The translations under genes and the position numbers were made by a program. From Bacillota bacterium (GTDB taxonomy: Bacteria > Bacillota > Sulfobacillia > JAJZYS01 > JAJYTV01), in assembly GCA_021799275.1 (NCBI GenBank), contig JAJZAT010000032.1:1-34527 (forward strand): a stretch of 34,527 bases of DNA, written 5' to 3'. Below, piece by piece: positions 8,732-21,240 of the stretch. The notes under the pieces were generated by a model. The model had not been told where the DNA came from. It saw only the letters and a program-made list of their open reading frames with translations, and did no database searches. How positions within the stretch are numbered: the stretch's first letter is position 1; every line of letters starts with the position of its first letter.

Positions 8732-9934
8732 TTGCAAGGCCGGCGCATCACAGCTCTGCTGCTGACCGCATTCCTGGTCGCCCAGCTGCTCTGGCGCTGG
8801 CAGTATGGAGCTATCGCACCCGCGAGCTCGCTGGACAGCGGCTGGTCGGAGGTGGCCAGCGGCGCATATGTGGCCTCGGGCGACTTCCTGGTGCCCGAGG
8901 CGCAGGGGCAGGTGCTCCGCCACTCTGGGCAGGGCTGGGTGCAGGCGGGGCCGTCGTGGCACGCCAAGTGGAGCGGGCTCGAGGTGGACGTCTTCGGGCA
9001 GGGCTCGGGACTGATCGCCGTCGCGCGCACCAAGGCCGGCACGAAGATTCTGCCACGATACGGCGGCGGTTTCCTGCTGCGCGACCCGCAGCAGAACCTC
9101 TGGCTTGTGCAGCGCGAGCGCGTCAAGCTGCTGCTGGGCGGCGGACAGGGTCCCGACGGCCGCCAGGCCTTCATGGACCGCGCCGCAAGCCTGCGCCAGC
9201 AGGGTGCGGTGCCGGCAGGCTGGCAGCCTGTCTGGGCTGCGGAACCGCTGCCGGTGGGGGATGCGGTCTGGTACATCTCGAACCGCGACGGGCAGCCCGG
9301 CGTCACGGCGCCGCACGTGTTCCGCCTGCAGGGCAAGGAGGACGGACCATTCACGGCGCTCACGCCGCTCGGCAACCTTCGGCTCCTCACCGTGGACGCC
9401 AAGGCGGTCGTCGCCGCCGACGCCACGGGAACCCTGCTGCGCATCGACCAGGCTTCGGGAACGGTACTGCTGCGGCGGACAGACCTTCTGGTGCTTGCGT
9501 CGGGTGCCGACGGCAGGCTGGCGGTCCTGCACTCCGTGCCGGTCGGCAAGCCAGCACTCGAGGTGACCTCCGACGGTCTCCAGACGATGGCCGGGGTTCA
9601 GTTGGCCAAGAGTGTGCAGCCCATGGGCGACGCGTCGTTCTCGCTGCATGGACACTGGCTGGCCTTCCTGGCCCGCGGCGCCCAGGGGCTCGTGGTGGAG
9701 GTGGCCCGCCTTAACGGCGGTGCCGCCCTGCAGACGCAATCGATCACGCCCCCGGCCGGGACCCAGATCGACCCTTCCCTGCCCGTTTCGGTCTGCAACG
9801 GCGTGCTCTATCTCTCAACGCGCCAGGGCAAGCGCGTAGAGACGTGGTCACGGCCCCTCGGACCCGGCACGCCCCTGGCCTTCGCCGACATCCTGCAGTG
9901 GACTCGGGATCGTGATCGAGCGTGGCACGGGTAA
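8732..9934 (+). CDS. membrane-anchored extracytoplasmic protein of unknown function
   Basis: 400-aa protein that I do not recognise. Residues 1-25 (MQGRRITALLLTAFLVAQLLW) form a signal anchor with a basic start, so the rest should lie outside the membrane. The body is rich in Gly, short strands and turn motifs, such as GSGLIAVARTKAG, PLGNLRLLTVDAKAVVAADATGTLLRID and GRLAVLHSVPVG. They recur about every 40 residues and suggest a beta-propeller (inference). No catalytic motif is visible. The TTG start at 8732 has GGGGAGGGGA at 8717-8726 with a 5-6-base spacer. Its 3' end overlaps the convergent NYN gene by 87 bases. Confidence 0.7.
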   Translation: MQGRRITALLLTAFLVAQLLWRWQYGAIAPASSLDSGWSEVASGAYVASGDFLVPEAQGQVLRHSGQGWVQAGPSWHAKWSGLEVDVFGQGSGLIAVARTKAGTKILPRYGGGFLLRDPQQNLWLVQRERVKLLLGGGQGPDGRQAFMDRAASLRQQGAVPAGWQPVWAAEPLPVGDAVWYISNRDGQPGVTAPHVFRLQGKEDGPFTALTPLGNLRLLTVDAKAVVAADATGTLLRIDQASGTVLLRRTDLLVLASGADGRLAVLHSVPVGKPALEVTSDGLQTMAGVQLAKSVQPMGDASFSLHGHWLAFLARGAQGLVVEVARLNGGAALQTQSITPPAGTQIDPSLPVSVCNGVLYLSTRQGKRVETWSRPLGPGTPLAFADILQWTRDRDRAWHG

Positions 9935-10633
9935 CACGCGGGACGCCGCGGACGGAGCGTCCGCGGGCCGTGCGAGCCCCGTGAGTTCGCTCTGGCTGTC
10001 CGCGAGGCGCGGCGCTATGCCCTCCGCTTCGGGCAGGCGCGTCAGGGTGGCGTCCCGGTCCGGCAGAGGCTTGCCGATCTGCTCGCGCAGGTCTTCTAGG
10101 AAGATGTACCTGTCGACCGCGTTGATGAGGTCGTACGCCGCCATCTCGCGGGAACCGACGCCCAAAACGCGCTTGCCGCGCGAGCGCAGGAGTTCCACCG
10201 CCCGTTCGAAGTCGCCGTCGCCGGTACAGAGAATCGCCACGTCGTAGAGATCGACGGTGTTGAACATGTCGATGACCAGTTCGATGTCGAGGTTGGCCTT
10301 GCGGAACGTCTCGCCGGTCTCCTGGTCCATGATCTCCTTCAGGGCCTTGCGCCGCACGGTGTAACCCATGGCTGTGAGGGCGCGCAAGAACCCTTCGAGG
10401 CTCGTGTCGACCGGGGTCGGCACCGAGGTGAAGTAAAAAGCGTTGTATACCTCATAATCCTTTGTAAGAAAATCGTAGAGCCTGCGATAATCTAGATGCC
10501 ATCCCAATTTTCGCTGCGCATAAAACATGTTTGCGCCGTCTACGAAGACTGCGAGCTTTGCCATGGACGTTGCGGCCGCCGGATTGATCGGGGCCTTGCT
10601 CCCTTCGTCAATTTCTTCCCGGAACTGGTTCAT
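9848..10633 (-). CDS. NYN/LabA-type (PIN-like) nuclease domain protein
   Basis: The NYN domain is a PIN-like RNase fold with acidic residues that bind metal. It is visible as AVFVDGANMFYAQRKLGW, then KANLDIELVIDMF, the ILCTGDGDFERAVELLRSRGKRV block and GVGSREMAAYDLINAVDRYIFL. The key aspartates are in VDGAN, DIELVIDM and GDGDF, as in the LabA/DUF88 group, which is thought to cut RNA. The C-terminal 70 residues are low in complexity and rich in Pro, Ala and Ser. The start is uncertain: ATG 10633, ATG 10564 (just before the domain) and GTG 10690 are in frame, and none has a good RBS. It is divergent from the tRNA operon. Confidence 0.85.
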   Translation of the reverse strand: MNQFREEIDEGSKAPINPAAATSMAKLAVFVDGANMFYAQRKLGWHLDYRRLYDFLTKDYEVYNAFYFTSVPTPVDTSLEGFLRALTAMGYTVRRKALKEIMDQETGETFRKANLDIELVIDMFNTVDLYDVAILCTGDGDFERAVELLRSRGKRVLGVGSREMAAYDLINAVDRYIFLEDLREQIGKPLPDRDATLTRLPEAEGIAPRLADSQSELTGLARPADAPSAASRVLPVPRSITIPSPLQDVGEGQGRAGSEGP

Positions 10634-10754
10634 GGTACGAATCATAGGTGCTGACTTCGGCAACTCCGTGCCGTAAACTACATTATGCACGAAGGTGGCG
10701 AAACTTGCTCATGGCGTTCGCCTGGAACGGCACCGCCTCACCGCAACACGTCGC

Positions 10755-11156: not shown

Positions 11157-11297
11157 ATGGGAGATGCAAAGCTCGTGCACGCGGTACCGCGCGGTCTGTC
11201 GCATCCGCCGAACGGTCCTCAGCGAGACGTGGTGGGACCTGCCGACGCACGTGTCCGCAAACTGGCATTGTGGAAGTCGATGACCTGGTTGTCGTAG
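11157..11297 (+). CDS. possible 46-aa ORF with strong RBS, uncertain
   Basis: An ATG at 11157 has GGGGAGG (11145-11151) five bases upstream and a frame of 46 codons to TAG. The peptide (MGDAKLVHAVPRGLSHPP onward) resembles nothing I know. The last 79 bases lie antisense to the end of the minus-strand gene. The good RBS is the only argument for it; base use in third positions is not clearly coding. Confidence 0.25.
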   Translation: MGDAKLVHAVPRGLSHPPNGPQRDVVGPADARVRKLALWKSMTWLS

Positions 11298-11722
11298 GCA
11301 AGCTCATAGCACTGGTAGTGGACTACGGCCCGCCAGGAACCTAGAGCCATGGCGGCCGGAATCTCGTCCTGGTCGTAGACCGTCGCCAGCACGGCGGCAC
11401 GCTCGAGTTCGGGGGGCGGCGGCACGTCGGCCTCGGGCCACTCGATGCTCCAGGTCGGCAGAGACGTTTCGGTCTCCGCAGGTCCTGGGCTGCCGACCTT
11501 GGCGAGCAGTTCGCGCTGCTCCGCCTCAAGGTCGCGCCGACGCATGATGAGCTCCCGCTCGTGCCGGAGCTCATCGAGCAGGCTATCGGCCGCGGTTGCC
11601 ACCCTATCCGACACCTGCAGGTGCAGCGCGCGCCGCATCAGATCCTGAGGCGACAACCCGAGTGCCGCGGCGGTCGGCGGCACTCGCTCCTGCGCCCATC
11701 CGGGCAGGTCGACGGCGGGCAT
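11219..11722 (-). CDS. hypothetical protein downstream of dynamin-like GTPase
   Basis: 167-aa soluble protein that I do not recognise. The first half is alpha-helical and charged, with a likely coiled coil at about residues 45-75 (DELRHERELIMRRRDLEAEQRELLAK). A Pro-rich stretch, ADVPPPPELERA, and a short mixed region follow. It starts 2 bases after the GTPase stop codon with AAGGAG about 9 bases upstream, so it is translated from the same mRNA. A helical partner of a dynamin-like protein is a reasonable guess, since bacterial dynamins often come with a second helical protein (inference). Confidence 0.75.
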   Translation of the reverse strand: MPAVDLPGWAQERVPPTAAALGLSPQDLMRRALHLQVSDRVATAADSLLDELRHERELIMRRRDLEAEQRELLAKVGSPGPAETETSLPTWSIEWPEADVPPPPELERAAVLATVYDQDEIPAAMALGSWRAVVHYQCYELAYDNQVIDFHNASLRTRASAGPTTSR

Positions 11723-11724
11723 GT

Positions 11725-13428
11725 CTACGGCTCTCCTTGGCTGTTCCTGGGGCTGCCGCCGGGACCTGCGAGCAAATCTTCGATACGATCGATCTCGCCG
11801 AGCACCGATTCGATCGCGGCGAGACTCTCGCGGGCCTCCGGGTCATCTTCCGACAGGGTGGACGCCGCATGAACGAGGGCATCTTCAAGTCGGCGGAGCA
11901 CCGTTTCGATGCGCTGCCAAAGGTGTTGCCACTCGGATTTCAGGCTCTCGTGGAAGTGGTAGTGCAGTCGCCCGATGTTGCGATCCACGAACCAGTCCAT
12001 GCGCTCCTCGAGGCTGTGCGTTGCCGCCTGCCTGGCCGGATGAGTCGGCAGAACCGCCACGGCAGGCGGAACCGCCAGGGTCGGCAGGAGTCCCGGGTCG
12101 TCCTGCCACTTGAACGAGAAGCCCCTGGACTCCCTGATTTCAAGGGGCAGCTCGATCGTTACCGCTGGCAGTTCGAAGAGGTCTGCCGTGGCCTGGGCGA
12201 AGTGCTTGATCCATGCCTGGATCTGGCCGACAAGCGGTTGCGCGCCACCCGTGAGCAGTTCGGGCGCGATCCGTCTCAGGTCGTCGCGTGACTGCTCCAG
12301 TTGCGTGCGGGCACTCGCCTCGAGCTCCTCGGCGACCCGTAGGTACACTGTGCGCGGGTGTCCCGACGCTTGCAACTGCCTGTCTAGACTGGTGCGCAGT
12401 GCCTCAAGGATTGGGCGCTTGAGCGCCTCGAGCTTTGCGTCGTACGCCTGCGTCACGCCACGGAACGCGCTCTGCCAAGCGCCCCTATACATCTCTAGGG
12501 CCGCGTCGAAGTCCCTGAGCAGTGCCTGCAACGCAGCATGGCGCTGTGCGCGCAGCTCCTGCGGCGTGGTGTACGCCGCACGCTGCAGGTCGAAGTCGAA
12601 TGCGAGGCGGTGCAGGACGCCCTCGATGCGGCGGCCGGCCATCGCCTGTGCCATCGACTCTCCTTCGTTCTGCGCGAGTTCCTTAAGGCGTTGCGCGATC
12701 TCCTCAAGCCCTGCCTGCCTACCTTGCAGCACGCTTGCGGTGAGCACCGGTACCGGCATGCCGAGCGCGTCACCAACCACGTCCGCGATGAACCGGCGCA
12801 CGACATCGAGGTCCGCAGACGGCAGGAGGTCGGACTTGCTCAGGACTACGAGCACCTTGCCGGCATGTTGGCGTGCGTCCTCGAGGAACTGACGCTCGAC
12901 GTCCGTGATCGGTGGATCGGGGGAGACCACGAACAGGGCGACGTCCACCCAGGGGAGATACTCCGTGGCCACGTTGGTGTTGTGCGCCCAGATGGAGCCG
13001 ATCCCGGGCGTGTCGACGAGTTCGATGCCGTTCGCGAGGAGCTCGGCCGGGTAGTTGACGAGGATATCCCTGACACCGCGGATGTTCTTCGGGTTTCCGA
13101 CCTCCGTGGCGTAGAGGGGGATCTCGTCGCGCGACACTTCAACCTCCGAGCCGTCTTGCAGGCGCACCGTCACCCGTAGCGCCTCGCCCCAGCGCACCTG
13201 CGTTACCATGGCGGTAAGCGGCAGGACGCCTGTCGGCAGGATCTCCTCGCCGACCAGGGCATTCAGGAGACTCGTCTTGCCGCGCTTGAACTGCCCGACC
13301 AGGGCTACCGACAAGACCCTGCGCTCGAGTCGCCCCTCGATCTCCTGGAGATCCTCCTGCAAATCGGTGCGGCCAAGCCGGGTGAATAGATCAAGCGCCT
13401 GCGCGATGGCTGCCGCTATCTGCGGCAT
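11725..13428 (-). CDS. bacterial dynamin-like GTPase
   Basis: 567-aa large GTPase of the dynamin family. These proteins bind membranes, oligomerise and remodel or fuse lipid layers. The GTPase motifs are complete: G1 GQFKRGKTS (45-53), G2 threonine in LPLTAMVT, G3 DTPG (139-142) and G4 SKSD (197-200). From about residue 240 on it is a long helical stalk with heptad-like charged segments and no clear transmembrane helix, unlike bacterial dynamins with a membrane paddle of two helices. The ATG has GGAGGTGA nine bases upstream. It follows the last gene of the hydrogenase-like operon by 76 bases on the same strand with no visible promoter or terminator between, so co-transcription is likely. Confidence 0.92.
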   Translation of the reverse strand: MPQIAAAIAQALDLFTRLGRTDLQEDLQEIEGRLERRVLSVALVGQFKRGKTSLLNALVGEEILPTGVLPLTAMVTQVRWGEALRVTVRLQDGSEVEVSRDEIPLYATEVGNPKNIRGVRDILVNYPAELLANGIELVDTPGIGSIWAHNTNVATEYLPWVDVALFVVSPDPPITDVERQFLEDARQHAGKVLVVLSKSDLLPSADLDVVRRFIADVVGDALGMPVPVLTASVLQGRQAGLEEIAQRLKELAQNEGESMAQAMAGRRIEGVLHRLAFDFDLQRAAYTTPQELRAQRHAALQALLRDFDAALEMYRGAWQSAFRGVTQAYDAKLEALKRPILEALRTSLDRQLQASGHPRTVYLRVAEELEASARTQLEQSRDDLRRIAPELLTGGAQPLVGQIQAWIKHFAQATADLFELPAVTIELPLEIRESRGFSFKWQDDPGLLPTLAVPPAVAVLPTHPARQAATHSLEERMDWFVDRNIGRLHYHFHESLKSEWQHLWQRIETVLRRLEDALVHAASTLSEDDPEARESLAAIESVLGEIDRIEDLLAGPGGSPRNSQGEP

Positions 13429-13504: not shown

Positions 13505-15616
13505 TCACCATACGTGGGCGAGCACTAGGGCGGCGAGCAACACGATGAAGACATAGGTGATGTAGAGGTTGAGCCTCCCATGGTGCAGGCTAGCCAAGGC
13601 GCCTGCGATCCTGCTCGTTACCCACCAGAGCGGTCCGGAGACGACCCGATCGACGATATAGGTTTCCTGCGGTTGGCGTTGGATTCCGACGCGGAACGCG
13701 TTCTCCCGTACTTCGTCATGTTCGACGGTCCTGCGGAAGATGCTGCTGAAGAGGACGCGCACAGGCGCAGCAAAGCCGGTCGCCGTGTACGTGGCTTCAG
13801 GCCACAGCCGGTACCTGCCGCCGTCCCACGGACGCCTCAGGACGGTGGCGCCGCGCGTTCCGAGGACCACTCGCAGGCCATAGGCCGCCGCGAGCAGGAC
13901 GAGGAGCATGAGCATCAGGTAGCTGGGTGACGCAGCGAACGCGACGCCCGTCCCGTCCGGGCCGATCCGGTGCATGAGCACGAGGCCAGGTGCGGGCAGG
14001 ACGCCCTTGCCGACATGCGAGCCAATCGATTGGAACGTGCTGGCGAACGCCGCTGGCAGTCCAGTACCAAAGAACGGTGGCACGAGGGCGCCCTGCGCTC
14101 CCCTCGGACCGAACGACGCGACGATGCGGCTGAGACCCGACACCACGTAGGTCGGGGTGATGCCGAGCAGCAGGCAAAGCGCGGCTAGGATCCCCATGCC
14201 CCAGCGCAGGGCGGCAGGCGCCTCACGTGCCTCCTCTGCCTGCTGCGAGCGACCGAGACCGAGGAAGCTCATGGCGTACGCCCGCACAAACGCGGTGGCG
14301 GCCAGACCCGCGGTCAAGGCGACCAGCACGCCGGCAAAGGCGAACGCCGTCTTCACGCCTACCGGCGCCAGTTCCACGCTGCGTAGCAGACTCTGGATCA
14401 GCAGCCACTCGCTCGCGAAGCCGTTGAACGGCGGGAAAGCAGCGATTGACAGCACCCCTGCCAGGAAGAATCCGGATGTCCATGGCATTCTGCGGACGAG
14501 TCCGCCGAGGCGGTCCATGTGGCGAGATCCCGCCTGCTGGTCTACGGCGCCTGCCCCGAGAAAGAGCAGGGACTTGTAGAGCGAGTGGTTGACGAGGTGG
14601 AAGAGCGCCGCGACGAACGCCATCGCGGCCAACACCGGGAAGTGCATGGCGGTGAAGGTGAAGGCCGCGCCCAGGCCAACGGTGATCAGTCCCATGTTTT
14701 CGATCGAGCTGTGGGCGAGCATGCGCTTGATGTCGCTTTCGGTATTGGCGTAGAGGATGCCGAGGAGGGCGGTCACCGCGCCGATCAGCAGCACGATCAC
14801 GGCGGCCGGCACCAGCAGCGGAGCCAGGAACGACCCCGCACTGCGCAGGATGCCGTAAATGCCGAGGTTTAAGATGACGCCGGAAAGCAGCGCCGAGGCA
14901 TTGGCCGGAGCGGCGGGGTGGGCGCGCGGCAGCCAGCCCATGCCTGGAAAGAGCCCTGCCTTGACGCCGAAGCCGAAGAACGTGAGCAGGAACGCCGCCC
15001 AACGGACGGAAGCCGGAACGGCCCGTGCTGCGTGCGCCAAGGCCGCGAAGCTTGTGCCCCCCGCGTGGACCGACAGGAGCAGGAGGCCGACGATCGCCGC
15101 CATGGTTCCGACCTCGCCCGCGGCGAGCATGGAGAGGGCGGCGCCCTGGGTGCCTTCGCGCCGGTGCTCGTACGCGACGAGGAGGTAGGCGAGGACCGAC
15201 ATGACCTCCCATGCGACGAAGAATGTCACGATGTCCCTGGCCGTGAGCACCAGGACGATCGAGGCCAGGAGCACATGGAAGCCGACGCTGAAGCCGCGCA
15301 GGCTGTACTTGCCGAGATAGCGGGGTAGGTAGCCGGGGGACGCCAAGGCGACCGCGAGGAACACGGCGCCGGTCGTGGCGAGGAACAGCGACGACATCGG
15401 GTCCAGCCCTACCTCGAGGGGCCCAAGGGCCGGTAGCTGCCCGAAGACGTAGATCGCACTTCCGGCGGCGATGCCGAGAAGGCCCGTGACGAGAACCACA
15501 AGCGACGAGATCCCAGCCGTGACGGCGAGCAGTAGGGGTGCGACACGCTCGCGCAGGGCGAGCGCGAGCACGGCGCCAAGCAGCGGCAGGGCGAGACAGA
15601 GAGCTACGGCGTTCAT
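13505..15616 (-). CDS. Ehr/HyfB-like antiporter-type membrane subunit
   Basis: Large membrane subunit (703 aa) of the NuoL/HyfB/MrpA family, which moves H+ or Na+ through the membrane arm. About 14-16 helices. Conserved features are the glutamate in FVAWEVMSVLAYLLV, the lysine in FGFGVKAGLFPGMGWLPRAH and the SDIKRMLAHSSIENMG segment. The usual PLH of the lysine motif is PGM here. Alternative upstream starts exist in frame, but ATG 15616 has GAGGAG eight bases upstream and overlaps the stop of the small subunit as ATGA. It is the last of the six complex genes. HyfB is usually read first in hyf operons, so its place at the end is different. Confidence 0.92.
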   Translation of the reverse strand: MNAVALCLALPLLGAVLALALRERVAPLLLAVTAGISSLVVLVTGLLGIAAGSAIYVFGQLPALGPLEVGLDPMSSLFLATTGAVFLAVALASPGYLPRYLGKYSLRGFSVGFHVLLASIVLVLTARDIVTFFVAWEVMSVLAYLLVAYEHRREGTQGAALSMLAAGEVGTMAAIVGLLLLSVHAGGTSFAALAHAARAVPASVRWAAFLLTFFGFGVKAGLFPGMGWLPRAHPAAPANASALLSGVILNLGIYGILRSAGSFLAPLLVPAAVIVLLIGAVTALLGILYANTESDIKRMLAHSSIENMGLITVGLGAAFTFTAMHFPVLAAMAFVAALFHLVNHSLYKSLLFLGAGAVDQQAGSRHMDRLGGLVRRMPWTSGFFLAGVLSIAAFPPFNGFASEWLLIQSLLRSVELAPVGVKTAFAFAGVLVALTAGLAATAFVRAYAMSFLGLGRSQQAEEAREAPAALRWGMGILAALCLLLGITPTYVVSGLSRIVASFGPRGAQGALVPPFFGTGLPAAFASTFQSIGSHVGKGVLPAPGLVLMHRIGPDGTGVAFAASPSYLMLMLLVLLAAAYGLRVVLGTRGATVLRRPWDGGRYRLWPEATYTATGFAAPVRVLFSSIFRRTVEHDEVRENAFRVGIQRQPQETYIVDRVVSGPLWWVTSRIAGALASLHHGRLNLYITYVFIVLLAALVLAHVW

Positions 15617-16326
15617 GACAGCAACTCCTCGGCGGACATCCGGCCCATAAGGCTCAGCAGGCCGTCCAGGATGGCAAGCGGTGGCGGCGGATTGCCTGGT
15701 ACGACGACGTCCACGGGCAGAACATCCCCTAGGCCGGCGGCGGTCGTGAAGCTTGGGCCGAACGGGACACCGGTGACGGCCGTGGATCCCACGGCCATGA
15801 CCCACTTGGGTTCCGGCATGGCCTCGTAGGTGTCCAGGAGAGCTTGGCGCGTTCCCTGCGTCACGGGCCCGACCACGAGTAGGACGTCCGCGTCGCGCGG
15901 GGTGGGCGTAAAGAAGATGCCGAGGCGATGCACCGCGTAGTACGGGCTGGTGAGCTGCTTCAATTCACGCAGCGTTTCGCCGCCATCGCCGGCGTCGACG
16001 ACGCGCACGTGCAGCGAATGGCGAAACGCCCGGCCTGGCAGGTCGGCGGGGGAGAGGTGCAGGGCCGCCTGGCCCGTGTCGGCCCACTCCATCTTGGCGT
16101 CGCCACGGCGGCAGCGCTGACAATCGATGCAGCGGCCAAGATCAACTGCTACCTGGTCACCGCGCGCCTCAAGCGCCCCCGTCGGACAGACTCCGACCGC
16201 CGCCGGCCCCGCCTCGGATGTCGGGGTGGCGACGGGACGAGCTGGCCGCGCGCCGGGTTCTGCCGGCCGGGATCGTGGGTAAGGAGTCGTCAGGATGCCT
16301 CGCGTGAGGCCCTTGGTCGTCCACAT
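15613..16326 (-). CDS. Ehr/HyfI-like small subunit without N2 cysteines, fused to a ferredoxin-like segment
   Basis: NuoB/HyfI-family protein of 237 aa. The fold is clear (LKQLTSPYYAVHRLGI, DADVLLVVGPVT, LLDTYEAMPEPKWVMAVG, VLPVDVVVPG), but all four cysteines that bind the proximal cluster are replaced, by Gly115, Thr118, Thr182 and Asn212. The only cysteines in the protein are Cys47, 66, 69 and 72, in an N-terminal segment VCPTGA...CIDCQRC. In a ferredoxin fold, the last Cys of one motif and three of the next bind one [4Fe-4S] cluster, so exactly one cluster site is kept. ATG 16326 has AAGGAG six to eight bases upstream. The first 40 residues are Pro-rich and probably a linker. Confidence 0.88.
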   Translation of the reverse strand: MWTTKGLTRGILTTPYPRSRPAEPGARPARPVATPTSEAGPAAVGVCPTGALEARGDQVAVDLGRCIDCQRCRRGDAKMEWADTGQAALHLSPADLPGRAFRHSLHVRVVDAGDGGETLRELKQLTSPYYAVHRLGIFFTPTPRDADVLLVVGPVTQGTRQALLDTYEAMPEPKWVMAVGSTAVTGVPFGPSFTTAAGLGDVLPVDVVVPGNPPPPLAILDGLLSLMGRMSAEELLS

Positions 16327-16341
16327 TGGCGGCTCTCCTTC

Positions 16342-17922
16342 CTACCGGTCCGACTCGGCGACACTGAGACCGAAGCTCGCCAGAATGATAGGGAAGTCCT
16401 GGAATGCGGCGCCTTCGACCACGGTCGCGAGAGCAGGCCAGTTGGTGAACGAGGGCGGCATGATGCGCCAGCGCAGGACCTTGCCCGTTGGCGAGAGACG
16501 GAGCCAGTGAAAGGCCGCTCCGAGCGGCGCCTCGCTCCAGCCGAGTGCGGCATCCGCTCGCGGTCGCCACGGTGCGAGCACTGGACCAGCCGGCAGGGAG
16601 CTCAGCGCCTGCTCCATCAGGTGCTGGGATTCGACGGCCTCTCCGGCGAGCACCCGAAACCGCGCGAAGGCGTCGCCCTCATCGGCCAAAGCGATGCGCA
16701 CCTCGCAGTCTCGGTACGCTCCATAGGGATGGATCACGCGCAGGTCCTTGCTGAGCCCAGAAGCCCGCCCGACTGGCCCAACCACCCCGTGATGCAACGC
16801 CTTTGGGACCTGCAGGGTGCCGACCTGTTCCACACGGTCGAGGAAGCCGTTGTCGTAGGCGAGCTGGTCCACGATGCGCGAGAGCCTGGCGGTGGCCTCG
16901 CGGCTGGTCTTAACGATATCAGCCGTTTCGGCGTCTCCGATGTCCAACGTGAGGCCGCCCGGACGGACGAGGCCGAACAGGTAGCGGTGGCCCGCAACCC
17001 TTCCGCTGAGCCGCAGAAGGTCCTCGACCAGCGAGGAGAGCATGGCCGTCGGCACTTGGAGCCCGGTGGACTCGACGAGTTCCTCGATGGTGCAGAGGTG
17101 CGAGCGCAGCCTCTCGAGCTCCGCGAAGACGAGGCGCAGCGCGGCGGCCCTGGGCGGCGGCGTCACCATCGCAATCGCCTCCGCCGCCTGGGCAAAGGCG
17201 GCGGCGTGGCCTACAGCGGACGTGCCGTTCAGGCGCTCCGCGAGCAGCAATACGTCTTCGACGTCCTGCCCTTCCGCGATCTTCTCGAGTCCACGGTACT
17301 TGTAAAAGAGGCGCGGCGTCGCATAGAGGATCTGCTCCCCTTCGGACTCAAGGCGGAACTGCGCACTCTCGGAGATGCCTGAATAGATCGGACCGATGGA
17401 CATGGTGAACGCACCAGGTGCCTTGACGAAGCGCTGAGGCCGCCAGACGCGGCCCGATCGCGGCGGTTTGGGCTCGTCCCTGTCGTAGTCTGGACGCATT
17501 GGGGCAACGCCTTCGGGCCAATCCTCGTTGTGAAGCGCGAAGTCACCGAGCAGCGGGTGGCCTTCGAAGGGGATTTCGAAGAGATCCTCGATCTCACGCT
17601 CGTGCCAGTCGGCGGAGAACACGTACGGGCTGATCGAGGGAAGCGCATCCCCTGGTTTCCCGTGCACGAACACGTGGACGAAGCCGGGGCAGGAGGAGCA
17701 GTAGAAGGCGTAGCGGCCGAGCCAGCCTGCATCTTCCCACTCGGTGACAATGCCGGCGAGGGCATAGCCGTTGCGGACAACGGTATCCACGACGCTAGGC
17801 AGCCGCTCTAAGGATGTCTCTACCTCCGCCTGGTCGCCGCCGCGCCGGACGGAGTCCCGGGGCAGAATCTCGGACAGCGCGGCCAGAACCGCGGCGTTGG
17901 GCGCGATCTGCAGGTTGGACAT
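16342..17922 (-). CDS. Ehr/HyfG-like large subunit without Ni-Fe ligands (NuoC-NuoD fusion)
   Basis: 526-aa protein with a NuoC-like N-domain (WHEREIEDLFEIPFEGHPLL, 106-125; PMRPDYDRDEP) fused to a NuoD/hydrogenase large-subunit domain, as in HycE and HyfG. Group 4 hydrogenases hold nickel with two CxxC pairs. Here the first is NGTS (Asn232, Ser235, in AERLNGTSAVGH) and the second is SVAE (Ser520, Glu523, just before the C-terminal SDR). No Ni-Fe site can form. The protein ends three residues after that motif, so there is no processed C-terminal peptide either. ATG 17922 follows GGAGGTGA. The small subunit begins 15 bases downstream. Assignment to the Ehr group (energy-converting hydrogenase related) rests on these substitutions. 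Confidence 0.92.
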   Translation of the reverse strand: MSNLQIAPNAAVLAALSEILPRDSVRRGGDQAEVETSLERLPSVVDTVVRNGYALAGIVTEWEDAGWLGRYAFYCSSCPGFVHVFVHGKPGDALPSISPYVFSADWHEREIEDLFEIPFEGHPLLGDFALHNEDWPEGVAPMRPDYDRDEPKPPRSGRVWRPQRFVKAPGAFTMSIGPIYSGISESAQFRLESEGEQILYATPRLFYKYRGLEKIAEGQDVEDVLLLAERLNGTSAVGHAAAFAQAAEAIAMVTPPPRAAALRLVFAELERLRSHLCTIEELVESTGLQVPTAMLSSLVEDLLRLSGRVAGHRYLFGLVRPGGLTLDIGDAETADIVKTSREATARLSRIVDQLAYDNGFLDRVEQVGTLQVPKALHHGVVGPVGRASGLSKDLRVIHPYGAYRDCEVRIALADEGDAFARFRVLAGEAVESQHLMEQALSSLPAGPVLAPWRPRADAALGWSEAPLGAAFHWLRLSPTGKVLRWRIMPPSFTNWPALATVVEGAAFQDFPIILASFGLSVAESDR

Positions 17923-17940: not shown

Positions 17941-19383
17941 TTAGCGGGATACGGCGAGTGAGGCCAGAGTGAGTAGGCGATGCAGCAACGGTGGGGTGTA
18001 GAGCCCAAGGACCAGTACGGGCAGAAGGCTGAGCGAGATCGCCCCGACGACGCTGGCCGGCAGACGGCGATGTGTCTGCTCCGCTGGAGCTTCCCCGAAC
18101 ACCATCCGGCCCACCTGCAGCATCACACCGATGAACGCGATGGCGATGAAGAGGGCGAGCAGGGCTACGATCCAGCCGTATCCCGCGAGCAGGCCGCTGC
18201 GGAAGATGGAGAACTCGCTGAGGAAGACGGCGAACGGCGGCACGCCAGCGATGGCTAAGGCTGCCGCCAACAGCGCGGCGCCGGAGAAAGGCGATGTGCG
18301 CAAGAGGCCCCGCACGTCGGCGATGTTGCGCGTCCGGTAGATGAGCAGCACCGCGCCCGCGGCGTAGAACGCCAGAGATTTGGCGAGACCGTGCGTGACG
18401 ATCTGGTAGAGGCCCGCGTACGAGCCCGCCTGACCGAAGCCGATGGCCGTGACGATGATGCCCATATGTTCAACGGTGGAGTAGGCCAGCATGCGCTTGA
18501 AGTCGTGCACCTGCAGGAGCAGGAATGCCGCCGCCCCCACCGACATGAGGCCGAAAGCGATCAGCCAGTCGTGCACGGGGAAATGCGGGATCACGTTCCA
18601 TACCGGCATCAGGCGCAGGATCACGTAGAGCACGGTGCTCACCTCGACGCCCGAAAGAAGGGCGCAGACGGGCGAAGGTGCCTGCGAGTGGGCGTCCGGC
18701 AGCCAGGTATGAAGCGGGAAGAGCCCCACCTTGGTGCCGAACCCGACCAGCACCAGCACGAAGGCGAGTCGCAGCAGGTCGGGTGACATCCGCGCCGCGG
18801 TGCCGGTGAGTGAGGCCCACGTCTCAGGCGCTCCCGGCGACACGCCCTGCAGGGCGTGGAGCAGGAGCAGAATGCCGAGGACGGCCACCGTTGCTCCCAT
18901 GATGGTCAGGATGGCGTACTTCCACGCTGCCTCGAGCCCTTCGGCGGTACGGTTGAAGCTGACAAGGAAGACCGAGAGCAGGGTTGTGAGCTCGACGGCC
19001 ACCCAGGTCAGCGCCGGCTGCAACAGAATCGGTACGAGAAAGAGCGACGTGACGAAAAGGTTGAGGTCGAAGTAGTACCTGCGTTCGCGCGTCTCGTCGC
19101 CTTCGGCCTCGCGAGCGATGTAGCCCCAGGAGTAGAGGGCGGCCGTGACGGCGAGGACGGCCTGCAGAAGGATCAGGAGGGCGGAGAGCGCGTCGGCGCC
19201 TATCCATTGCCTCAGCGGCGTCACGTTCCCGGACATCCCCACCTGCTGTGCGGTCCAAAGAGCGATCGCAAGTGCCGCGAGAGCCGCGACGAGCGTTGCG
19301 ACGCGTGCGAAGACGGGTTTGGCGGGAATCAGGGAGACGAGCGCCGCGACAAGCGGGAGGAGGGGAAGCAGCACGAGCATCAT
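17941..19383 (-). CDS. Ehr/HyfF-like antiporter-type membrane subunit
   Basis: 480-aa membrane protein of the NuoN/NuoM/HyfF family, with about 14 helices. The ion-path residues are present: glutamate in WVAVELTTLLSVFLVS, lysine in LVGFGTKVGLFPLHTWLPDAHSQAPSPV, and DFKRMLAYSTVEHMG. This is the second antiporter-like subunit of the complex, so two half-channels of this type are predicted. Its ATG overlaps the stop of the HyfE-like gene (ATGATGA), and the large-subunit gene starts 18 bases after it. Confidence 0.93.
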   Translation of the reverse strand: MMLVLLPLLPLVAALVSLIPAKPVFARVATLVAALAALAIALWTAQQVGMSGNVTPLRQWIGADALSALLILLQAVLAVTAALYSWGYIAREAEGDETRERRYYFDLNLFVTSLFLVPILLQPALTWVAVELTTLLSVFLVSFNRTAEGLEAAWKYAILTIMGATVAVLGILLLLHALQGVSPGAPETWASLTGTAARMSPDLLRLAFVLVLVGFGTKVGLFPLHTWLPDAHSQAPSPVCALLSGVEVSTVLYVILRLMPVWNVIPHFPVHDWLIAFGLMSVGAAAFLLLQVHDFKRMLAYSTVEHMGIIVTAIGFGQAGSYAGLYQIVTHGLAKSLAFYAAGAVLLIYRTRNIADVRGLLRTSPFSGAALLAAALAIAGVPPFAVFLSEFSIFRSGLLAGYGWIVALLALFIAIAFIGVMLQVGRMVFGEAPAEQTHRRLPASVVGAISLSLLPVLVLGLYTPPLLHRLLTLASLAVSR

Positions 19384-20051
19384 CGGGATCCCTCCTCGCG
19401 CAATCCGCTCAGCCGGCTGACGTGCGTCGTGCCGATGCGTTCGGAGATGGTCCGGGTCAGCAGGACGACAATGATGGTGACCACGATGCCTTCAAGGGCG
19501 GCGACGATCTCCCAGAGCGCGGAGGTGGTGGCGATGGCGATTCCGGCGAAGAACGCGGCATTGTCGAGCATGAGCAGGCTGAGAAACTGTGGCAGGGCCT
19601 CTCGCCGCACAGCGAGCGCGTAGACCGAGATCAGAAGGCCGGCAAGTCCCACAGGCAGGTTCACGGCGACGAAGCTTGGCATGCGCTCCGCCAGGGGCTG
19701 CGATACGAAGTAGGCAACCAGGCTGGCGCCAATCGCGATCATGAGCGACGTCGGCACGCTGACGGCCAGCTCCACCTCGCGCCGCGACTGAAAGCTGGCG
19801 CCGAGCGATCGTCTGAGCATCCAGGGAATGATGAAGGCCTTCGCCACAATGGTGATGACAGCTACGAGCAGAAGGTCGAGGGAATGCAGCGCGTAGGCCT
19901 GGAGCAGGGCGGAGGCGCTCAGCAGCAGGGCCTGACGCACGAACAGGCTGAGCGAAGCGGCGGTCTGCCTGGACGCCAGGAAGAGGAAGACCGTCATCAG
20001 GAAGAGCGCGGCGGAGAGTGCGTTGAGCCCGTACACCAGTGAAATTTGCAA
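19380..20051 (-). CDS. Ehr/HyfE-like membrane subunit (NuoK-related)
   Basis: 223-aa membrane protein with about seven hydrophobic segments, similar to HyfE. HyfE has a NuoK-like core plus extra helices and sits between the antiporter subunits and the core. Recognisable parts are SLDLLLVAVITIVAKAFIIPWMLRR and the late LSLLMLDNAAFFAGIAIA. The frame is open far upstream, but TTG 20051 with GAGGAGGT five to six bases before it is the convincing start. It is 11 bases after the HyfC-like gene and overlaps the HyfF-like gene by 4 bases. Confidence 0.88.
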   Translation of the reverse strand: MQISLVYGLNALSAALFLMTVFLFLASRQTAASLSLFVRQALLLSASALLQAYALHSLDLLLVAVITIVAKAFIIPWMLRRSLGASFQSRREVELAVSVPTSLMIAIGASLVAYFVSQPLAERMPSFVAVNLPVGLAGLLISVYALAVRREALPQFLSLLMLDNAAFFAGIAIATTSALWEIVAALEGIVVTIIVVLLTRTISERIGTTHVSRLSGLREEGSR

Positions 20052-20062
20052 GGCGGACCTCC

Positions 20063-21013
20063 TCACATGCGGAAGATCGCCGCGACCATAGCGACCACGG
20101 ACGTGACGAAGGTCGCCCCAAGGAATTCCGAGATGCGGAAGAGGCGAAGTTTGGCGAGCGACGTCTCGATAGCGGCGATCAGCACCGCGAAAATCAGGAG
20201 CTTGAGCGCCACGAGCGGGATGGCGGCTGCCACCGCTACCAAGGTAGGAGTTGCGGCCAGACCCCACGGAGAGACCAGTACATTCAGGAAGACGAGCGAG
20301 AGCACCATGAGCTTCATCTGGCCGGCCCACTTGATCATTGCGAGCGACGGTCCCGAGTACTCGAGGTTCTTGGACTCGTCGATCATGGCGAGTTCAAAGT
20401 GGCCGCCAGGATTATCCACAGGCAGCCGGCCGTTCTCGGCCAGCACGATCATGACAAAGGCCGCGGCCAAGAGGACGTGGCTCGGCGCGAAGAACGCGGC
20501 CAGGGACTGGACCCACTGCTGCTGCACGACGTATGGGATGGTGGAGTTCGCCACGAACGAGACGGTGAAGAAGATAATGATGAAGATAGGTTCCACCAGG
20601 AGGCTCACCATGCGCGTCCGGCTGGCGCCGACGGCTCCATAGGGATTTGCTGCGTCCACGGCGGCCAGGGCCGTGAAGAAGCCGCCCAGGCCCAAAATGA
20701 AGCCGGCTCCCACCATGTCGCCCGCGAAGGCGAAGAATAGCGGAAACGAGGTGAGCGCGGGAATGAGCATCGTTACGATGATAGGTACCACGAAGCTGAT
20801 GTAGGGGGCGAAGTGGAAGATCCAGGAGGCCTCCGTCGACACGACCTGGGTCTTGCTAAAGAGCTTCCTCAGGTCGTAATAGGGCTGCAAGGGGCTTGTG
20901 GCGACCTTGCCTTGGATGGTCTCCTCGAGCCAGGCGAGCGTGCCCTTGTACAGCGGGGCCAGGAGGACCACAGTCAGGACTTGGACCAAATTCAGCAGCA
21001 GAAATAGCGTCAA
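20063..21013 (-). CDS. Ehr/HyfC-like membrane subunit (NuoH-related)
   Basis: 316-aa membrane subunit of the NuoH/HyfC/HycD family, which connects the peripheral arm to the membrane arm. It has about eight helices and the signature loop AENGRLPVDNPGGHFELAMIDESKNLEYSGPSLA, plus PYYDLRKLFSK near the N-terminus. TTG 21013 has GGAGGTGA seven bases upstream and is preferred to the longer frame from 21076. First gene of the operon. A TATAAT sits at 21048-21053 on this strand, but no good -35 is visible 16-18 bases before it. Confidence 0.92.
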   Translation of the reverse strand: MTLFLLLNLVQVLTVVLLAPLYKGTLAWLEETIQGKVATSPLQPYYDLRKLFSKTQVVSTEASWIFHFAPYISFVVPIIVTMLIPALTSFPLFFAFAGDMVGAGFILGLGGFFTALAAVDAANPYGAVGASRTRMVSLLVEPIFIIIFFTVSFVANSTIPYVVQQQWVQSLAAFFAPSHVLLAAAFVMIVLAENGRLPVDNPGGHFELAMIDESKNLEYSGPSLAMIKWAGQMKLMVLSLVFLNVLVSPWGLAATPTLVAVAAAIPLVALKLLIFAVLIAAIETSLAKLRLFRISEFLGATFVTSVVAMVAAIFRM

Positions 21014-21240
21014 CGCGTCACCTCCTGCCGCAGGTGGACCGTCAGGCATTATATGGCAGACAGCAAACAAGCCCACTCACGCCATCAGGCTCGCACCTAG
21101 GCACAAGATCTCCTGTACCCAGGAGTCGTCAGCCCGAATGGGCGCTAGTGGACTCCATCACTCGCAGCAACTTCCCTAAAGAGAGCCAGGGAAGGGCGCT
21201 ACCTAACGCGATTCTATCGACGGGTTGGCGGCGCTGTCAA
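21014..21240 (-). other. leader region of the hydrogenase-like operon with three hairpins
   Basis: Upstream of the first complex gene, the sequence contains three short perfect hairpins: 21171-21177 with 21188-21194 (7 bp), 21132-21135 with 21140-21143 (4 bp), and 21110-21115 with 21120-21125 (6 bp, 4-base loop). A TATAAT lies at 21048-21053. I do not recognise a known riboswitch or T-box. If transcription begins at that TATAAT the hairpins are outside the mRNA, and they could belong to an operator or to an upstream transcript. Confidence 0.3.

Follow-up and report, generated by a model that had tools for sequence, protein, structure and literature searches.

Ehr complexes (2013 source cited in PMC6349859) lack Ni, descend from the group-4 membrane hydrogenases and share the architecture of formate hydrogenlyase (FHL); their function is reported as unknown, leaving their role an open question (PMC12342949; PMC10284858) within a superfamily, that of complex I, in which the coupling of redox chemistry to ion movement is still debated. 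FHL-1 of Escherichia coli (HycB-G and FdhF; structure 7z0s) has a NiFe site, the proximal cluster G1, two HycF clusters and a formate dehydrogenase (FDH) arm, and the clusters of its relay lie less than 14 Å from one another (PMC9474812). In MBS of Pyrococcus furiosus (formerly Mbx), a sulfane-sulfur reductase, three of the four usual cysteines bind the proximal cluster, the Fe-S cluster itself is the catalytic site, and two whole complexes join as a dimer (PMC7684303). In this article, we describe an Ehr-type operon in which the ligands of the proximal, N2-type cluster have gone as well as those of the Ni-Fe site. It amounts to a natural experiment on whether pumps of this kind can operate when no electrons arrive at the normal site.

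An Ehr-type operon with a complete membrane arm

The operon occupies positions 21076-13505 on the minus strand of the window (the whole 34,527-nucleotide stretch of DNA that was analysed), and its six genes encode an Ehr-type, Hyf/formate-hydrogenlyase-like complex by Pfam, NCBIfam and synteny. The first gene of the cluster encodes a HyfC/NuoH-like membrane subunit of 337 aa (20063..21076, start codon approximate; PF00146, Pfam E 9.6e-29) and is followed by a HyfE-like membrane subunit (19380..20045; NCBIfam PRK11492, E 1.6e-12, residues 103-311), whose 5' end is also approximate because the reading frame is open from 20330 and similarity to Hyf membrane subunits begins only near residue 103. 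Next come a HyfF-like antiporter subunit of 480 aa (17941..19383; NCBIfam hydrogenase 4 subunit F, E 5.7e-104), a HycE-like large subunit of 526 aa in which a NuoC-like and a NuoD/HycE-like part are fused (16342..17922; PF00329 and PF00346), a HycG-like small subunit of 237 aa that joins a half-ferredoxin (NuoI/HycF-like) N-terminus to a NuoB/HycG-like domain (15613..16326; PF01058, residues 123-225), and a HyfB-like antiporter subunit of 703 aa (13505..15616; NCBIfam hydrogenase 4 subunit B, E 2.1e-155), the ATG of which overlaps the stop codon of the small subunit. Identity and synteny support all six assignments and the gene order is syntenic in relatives, so that an earlier, sequence-only reading of this locus was right to call it a full operon.

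The predicted folds also agree with that reading, which held that they had been kept. By sequence and predicted fold, the best solved relative of the large subunit is HycE of FHL-1 (7z0s), with which it shares the fused NuoC-NuoD type of architecture; FHL-1 is also closest for the small subunit, here by sequence. The AlphaFold model of the small subunit (mean pLDDT 86) resembles NuoB/HycG in its C-terminal half. In the membrane arm, nearly all conserved charged residues are retained, including Glu131, Lys218, Lys296 and Lys335 of the HyfF-like subunit, and the lysines and glutamates claimed for the antiporter-like subunits are present and conserved in both. The complex thus has the transmembrane Glu/Lys residues of the antiporter subunits and the NuoH-like charged chain that mark the complex I superfamily, and it shares with the Q-module of complex I (NuoB/NuoD/NuoH) the NuoB, NuoC, NuoD and NuoH folds as well as the charged residues of the membrane arm. 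The only membrane genes are HyfB, HyfC, HyfE and HyfF, and the Mrp-like distal module of small subunits found in MBS is missing, no small Mrp-type subunit genes being recognised in the operon. The antiporter subunits are nevertheless homologous by NCBIfam to those of Mrp-type cation/proton antiporters, which suggest a working mode, but from which the complex differs in lacking these small genes and in retaining a peripheral arm.

Two emptied sites and one retained cluster site

In the large subunit, alignment to group-4 hydrogenases, including HycE, places NGTS (residues 232-235; 17218..17229, minus strand) at the first Ni-Fe CxxC position and SVAE (residues 520-523; 16354..16365, minus strand) at the second, exactly as had been proposed, and the four Ni-Fe ligand cysteines that define a group 4 [NiFe] hydrogenase are therefore absent. 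The CxxC motifs are missing throughout the multi-phylum family and not just in this genus; by sequence, the loss of the Ni ligands is old and family-wide. The position of the quinone-site tyrosine of NuoD is occupied by Gly233. Together with the subunit identities, the ligand positions bear out the view of the complex as an Ehr-type, Ni-less relative of group 4 with a complete membrane arm.

The small subunit is where this complex departs from other Ehr complexes, with which it shares a group-4-like subunit set, antiporter-like membrane subunits and the absence of Ni-Fe ligands. Gly115 and Thr118 replace the proximal-cluster CxxC, with a new Glu117 between them (15973..15984), Thr182 replaces the third cysteine (15781..15783) and Asn212 the fourth (15691..15693; all minus strand), so the earlier assignment of these four residues is confirmed to the exact number. 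The only cysteines of the subunit are residues 47, 66, 69 and 72. Complex I and Fpo-like enzymes have an N2 cluster with consecutive cysteines and a quinone-site Tyr/His, whereas here N2, the consecutive-cysteine motif and the NADH module are all lacking; likewise MBS, although Ni-less, of the same superfamily and altered in its proximal-cluster coordination, retains a cluster with one open iron on three cysteines as its catalytic site, whereas here all four ligands are gone.

One could suppose that the proximal site still holds a cluster or other cofactor through non-cysteine ligands (for example Glu117, Thr118 and Asn/Asp212) or through residues of the large subunit. In favour of this, position 117, an invariant Ala in the rest of the family, has become Glu throughout the genus, position 212 is always N or D there, and three-cysteine versions exist in other clades. 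However, the genus has T, A or G at position 182, which is therefore not a ligand, and the alignments reveal no gained Cys or conserved His near the site. We know of no precedent for a four-iron cluster without any cysteine, and we consider the idea improbable.

What has been kept, and went unreported in the earlier reading, is a single [4Fe-4S] ligand set in the domain at the N-terminus of the small subunit that corresponds to half a NuoI/HycF-like ferredoxin, namely Cys47 together with Cys66-x2-Cys69-x2-Cys72 (16111..16188, minus strand), which is invariant in 81/81 sequences of one set and in the other family sequences examined. Its cysteine pattern suggests that it is the equivalent of the last NuoI/HycF cluster; of the NiFe site, proximal cluster, two HycF clusters and FDH arm of FHL-1, the complex thus keeps only one HycF-like cluster site. 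The sequence-only reading spoke of a redox-driven pump without its normal redox centres, and this holds for the Ni-Fe and proximal ligands but not for the complex as a whole: with this set in its fused half-ferredoxin domain, it is not devoid of redox centres.

Distribution and selection

All four proximal cysteines are missing in 5/5 operon-bearing species of the genus, the other four having G, T, A or G, and N or D at the respective positions. Since these are separate assemblies, a sequencing or frame error is ruled out, as is misalignment, either of which would have undone the earlier claim. By contrast, 13/13 aligned syntenic relatives of the same class keep all four cysteines. In trees built only from sequences gathered in this analysis, the sister group consists of two proteobacterial MAG operons that also have all four (UFBoot 100; local support 0.84 in another tree), which places the loss on a single stem branch. 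A separate multi-phylum clade has lost only Cys212, replaced by N, D, A, S, T or H, and it is these CCC[N/D/A/S/T/H] relatives in other phyla, rather than the complex in the window, that form the closer parallel to MBS. As far as the sequences indicate, complete loss of the proximal-cluster ligands occurs only in this genus, which is uncultured and known for this state from MAGs, and the earlier reading rightly singled it out; no described N2-less small subunit was found in the literature searched, a search whose scope did not include Marreiros 2013.

The whole complex is under purifying selection in the genus, with within-genus dN/dS of 0.18-0.24 for the small subunit, 0.12-0.20 for the large subunit and 0.09-0.32 for the membrane subunits. 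Two successive catalytic-site losses could mean that function has been lost in the genus and that the genes are eroding, but we give this very little credence: the reading frames are open in species with full coverage, dN/dS is well under 1 for every subunit, dS reaches 0.9 within the genus without gene breakage, and the changes are not spread at random but fall mainly at cluster positions. Over the six subunits, 15/412 family-invariant positions are changed in the genus; HyfB has 0/57, most of those in the large subunit are still conserved, and in the small subunit the changed ones are C115, A117 and C182 only, all in the cluster motifs. Decay is thus contradicted by both dN/dS and the invariant-site test, and we reject it.

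The search for a partner

A second catalytic pair using these membrane subunits would also have undone the earlier claim, but searches of the genome for PF00374 and HypD uncovered no membrane hydrogenase that might do so. They turned up a single true NiFe pair, which is soluble and group 3b-like; it has a small subunit of its own, and genes for a membrane hydrogenase are absent from its surroundings. On these searches, we reject a membrane hydrogenase elsewhere that borrows the genes of the operon. The genome has a second Ehr operon (Ehr-1; contig 54, L008), likewise Ni-less and with equal gene types, which differs in keeping all four proximal cysteines and lacking the half-ferredoxin N-terminus. 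The small subunit in the window could then be a scaffold only, with an N2-bearing subunit borrowed (for example from Ehr-1) or with the two complexes assembled together, much as MBS forms a dimer of whole complexes (PMC7684303). This seems distinctly improbable to us, since the small subunit in the window is itself under purifying selection and Ehr-1 encodes large, small and membrane subunits of its own, just 31-45% identical to those of the window operon.

When the flanking genes of the collected relatives were clustered, no recurring FDH, NADH or F420 module emerged, and we reject a dehydrogenase encoded beside the operon as its dedicated partner. Two FDH alpha genes with an in-frame TGA lie elsewhere in the genome, and a dehydrogenase partner acting in trans is possible. 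MrpE (Mrp antiporter subunit E) was not found in the genome, which favours an Mrp-like role for the complex, although other antiporters may still be encoded.

What the complex may do

Electrons would enter at the remaining ferredoxin-type cluster, but the route from there to the old active-site chamber appears to be cut because all four proximal-cluster ligands are lost; with relay distances of less than 14 Å in FHL, removal of the proximal cluster would break the chain, and transfer to the chamber should have no useful rate, the distance in this complex being estimated from relatives. Without a proximal cluster, the earlier description of the complex as a redox-driven pump becomes doubtful. 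Judged on its sequences, the complex is most likely a redox-gated or redox-uncoupled ion translocator. The best explanation as a whole, to which we would give nearly even chances, combines an Mrp-like proton/cation translocator in the membrane arm, a peripheral arm that has lost its chamber redox chemistry, and a single remaining cluster through which redox input gates or regulates transport. In the emptied site, the charge of Glu117 may imitate that of a reduced cluster. A joint reading, in which this fixed negative charge replaces the cluster here and the three-cysteine clusters of the partial-loss relatives are possibly catalytic, is plausible, if more to be doubted than believed. Strict conservation of the ferredoxin site would fit electron transfer to some other acceptor equally well, and the conserved charged residues are expected in a redox-driven pump too.

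Indeed, the complex may still be a redox enzyme whose half-ferredoxin cluster is terminal, reduces a substrate directly and drives the pump, for which the N-terminal domain would need to be shifted towards the chamber or the substrate bound near it. The invariance of the four ferredoxin-site cysteines and the MBS precedent of an Fe-S cluster as catalytic site (PMC7684303) speak for it. However, the ferredoxin cluster has its full four cysteines and therefore no open iron as in MBS, domain order and length are unchanged, and the conservation of most family-invariant large-subunit residues argues against a site elsewhere; we regard direct reduction as unlikely, though a serious contender.

Evolution has provided a comparative series, with the terminal cluster gone here and close relatives that have four or three ligands. 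Should the N2-less complex move ions, such a pump can run or be gated without chamber redox chemistry; should it move none, the remaining [4Fe-4S] site must have an unforeseen function. Likewise, a three-cysteine, MBS-like proximal cluster in a broad multi-phylum Ehr clade makes reduction of sulfur or other small substrates testable there.

Neighbouring genes

Co-directional with the operon and 76 bp downstream lies a gene for a dynamin-like GTPase (11725..13428, minus strand; PF00350, E 1.2e-27), followed on its 3' side by a 167-aa ORF (11219..11722, minus strand) that is conserved in the genus and has no family match. The GTPase is kept across the genus and the gene order is identical in loci L042 and L044; a functional tie to the complex is uncertain. 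Dynamin-like genes also lie near the operon in four other genomes.

Conserved operon, missing ligands

The six genes of the Ehr-type complex lie tightly packed on the minus strand (21076-13505) in the order HyfC (NuoH-like), HyfE, HyfF (antiporter), large subunit, small subunit and HyfB (antiporter). By sequence profile and predicted fold, the large subunit is a HycE-like NuoC-NuoD fusion whose closest solved relative is the E. coli formate hydrogenlyase (FHL) subunit HycE, and the C-terminal half of the small subunit matches HycG/NuoB; the 80 residues at its N-terminus form a truncated ferredoxin domain fused ahead of it. The sequence-only reading had placed NGTS and SVAE at the Ni-ligand motifs of the large subunit, and Gly, Thr, Thr and Asn at the four N2-type (proximal) positions of the small subunit; both assignments stand, the former at residues 232-235 and 520-523 and the latter at exactly the numbered positions 115, 118, 182 and 212, and its further claim of retained lysines and glutamates in the antiporters holds as well, with nearly all of these, and of the NuoH-like subunit's charged residues, conserved. 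The small subunit's only cysteines are those of the ferredoxin domain, where a CP...CxxCxxC motif provides one full [4Fe-4S] ligand set (Cys47, 66, 69 and 72) and the other set that a two-cluster ferredoxin would normally carry is absent. In ferredoxins the first CP cysteine pairs with the second CxxCxxC, and by this rule I take the site to be a candidate for the NuoI/HycF cluster adjoining N2.

Among 154 genomes of the class Sulfobacillia, from which matching regions were fetched for gene-order comparison, full-length relatives occur in four further species of the genus (76-88% identity) and about 14 further class species (~47-54%), with identical six-gene order in the fetched regions; the search met no match to the operon in G050, a sixth genome of the genus that is 80% complete. 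All four proximal cysteines are absent in 5/5 operon-bearing species of the genus and present in every full-length class relative of the same Ehr family outside it. The names of the sister MAGs suggest mine-water Bacillota. Two small subunits of the same class that are of the type of Ehr-1, the second Ehr operon of the window genome, carry CGGP in place of CxxC (L038, L039), so that branch has ligand losses too.

With dS reaching 0.9 within the genus, Nei-Gojobori dN/dS ranges from 0.18 to 0.24 in the small subunit, from 0.12 to 0.20 in the large one and from 0.09 to 0.32 among the membrane subunits. Out of 412 positions that are 95% invariant among 63-86 other family members, 15 are altered throughout the genus (HyfC 4/114, HyfE 1/27, HyfF 3/72, large 4/88, small 3/54, HyfB 0/57), an overall fraction that control clades roughly match or exceed. 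In the small subunit the changes are C115G, A117E and C182(T/A/G); others include P175S of the large subunit and G59A of HyfC (R49W nearby), which, judging from homologues, probably sit in loops bordering the active-site chamber. Because dN/dS is low, altered invariant positions are few and charged residues are nearly all kept, the change is narrow, removing the proximal cluster and retaining the remainder of the complex.

Partial losses across the family

Scanning 84,980 species genomes yielded the 80 best loci of the Ehr family, which by record titles span Acidobacteriota, several proteobacterial classes, Planctomycetota and others. The four ferredoxin cysteines are conserved in all of them, more distantly related members of the phylum whose ferredoxin domain is fuller have all eight aligned cysteines, and Ni-ligand loss is common to the whole family. 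The proximal set is complete in 30/81 sequences, Cys212 is the sole loss in 41 (24 N, 10 D, 3 A, 2 S, 1 T, 1 H), Cys118 is Val in five, mostly Planctomycetota, and the five devoid of any proximal cysteine belong to the window genus only; since the scan patterns permitted C/N/D at 212 and C/G at 115, other replacements may be under-sampled in these counts. The Cys212-only losses are multi-phylum (L079, L083-L089, L092, L094, L095, L099-L102, L105-L109, L111, L112, L115-L118, L120, L125, L126, L130, L132-L134, L136, L140-L142, L145, L149-L151), and the Planctomycetota-type loci (L080, L090, L097, L104, L144) have Val at the second CxxC cysteine (SGSCDAVIQE) with the other three present.

In a maximum-likelihood tree built from both the large and the small subunits, the genus is sister to two proteobacterial MAG operons, both with all four proximal cysteines (bootstrap 100; same pairing in FastTree, local support 0.84), and this group joins the remaining class members. 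Parsimony on that tree requires one change at Cys115, one at Cys182, two at Cys118 and four at Cys212, which makes a single event on the genus stem, separate from the Cys212 losses elsewhere, the best reading of the complete loss.

What the complex might do

In the papers examined, Ehr complexes are characterised solely by their missing Ni-Fe ligands, and several of these papers call their function unknown (PMC6349859, PMC10284858, PMC12342949, PMC7304191); searches of the literature outside subscription papers turned up no Ehr or complex I relative described as devoid of all proximal ligands. MBS is the Ni-less P. furiosus superfamily member in which one proximal cysteine does not bind and polysulfide is reduced at the open iron (PMC7684303). 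Resembling this three-cysteine catalytic cluster in its ligand loss, the multi-phylum Cys212-less set is a candidate for MBS-like chemistry, whereas the window genus, with no proximal ligand left where MBS lost binding by just one, is not. In the FHL relay, clusters lie less than 14 Å apart, and a transfer rate of ~10^2 s^-1 is predicted for 17 Å (PMC9474812); with the proximal cluster gone, an electron leaving the remaining cluster would have to cover the sum of two hops to reach the chamber, presumably well beyond 17 Å. I lean, at slightly under even chances, towards a redox-gated or uncoupled translocator. That the complex is instead a redox enzyme using an unrecognised acceptor or an unrecognised cofactor is, for these two rivals jointly, a lesser but serious prospect. 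Among the genes flanking the operon in relatives, no family of dehydrogenases is recurrent. The window genome has two formate dehydrogenase alpha genes elsewhere (L191, contig 40; L192, contig 58), each with one in-frame TGA that suggests selenocysteine use.

Complementation in trans, by assembly with components encoded elsewhere, seems improbable. The window genome also has Ehr-1 (contig 54, L008), whose small subunit retains all four proximal cysteines and lacks a ferredoxin N-terminus. Complex I genes lie on contigs 22, 43 and 8, and the genome encodes HypD together with a NiFe hydrogenase, soluble and group 3b-like, that has a small subunit of its own; no MrpE match was found there.

Neighbouring genes

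A dynamin-like GTPase recurs near the operon in six loci, immediately downstream in the genus (window 11219-13428) and nearby in genomes of other phyla (L059, L101, L102, L124), and beyond the GTPase pair a predicted RNase with an NYN domain lies on the same minus strand (9848-10690). Ehr operons of both types repeatedly adjoin genes for MutS-like ATPases and, judged by eye, HEAT-like repeat proteins (L008 12389-15423 and 16970-17956; L123; L088, L108, L112). Locus L060 (contig 62 of genome G041) contains two different operons of Ehr/hydrogenase type that face each other, and one large subunit, carrying the Ni-Fe ligand motifs CGSC and CYAC, looks like a true hydrogenase beside its Ni-less paralogue.
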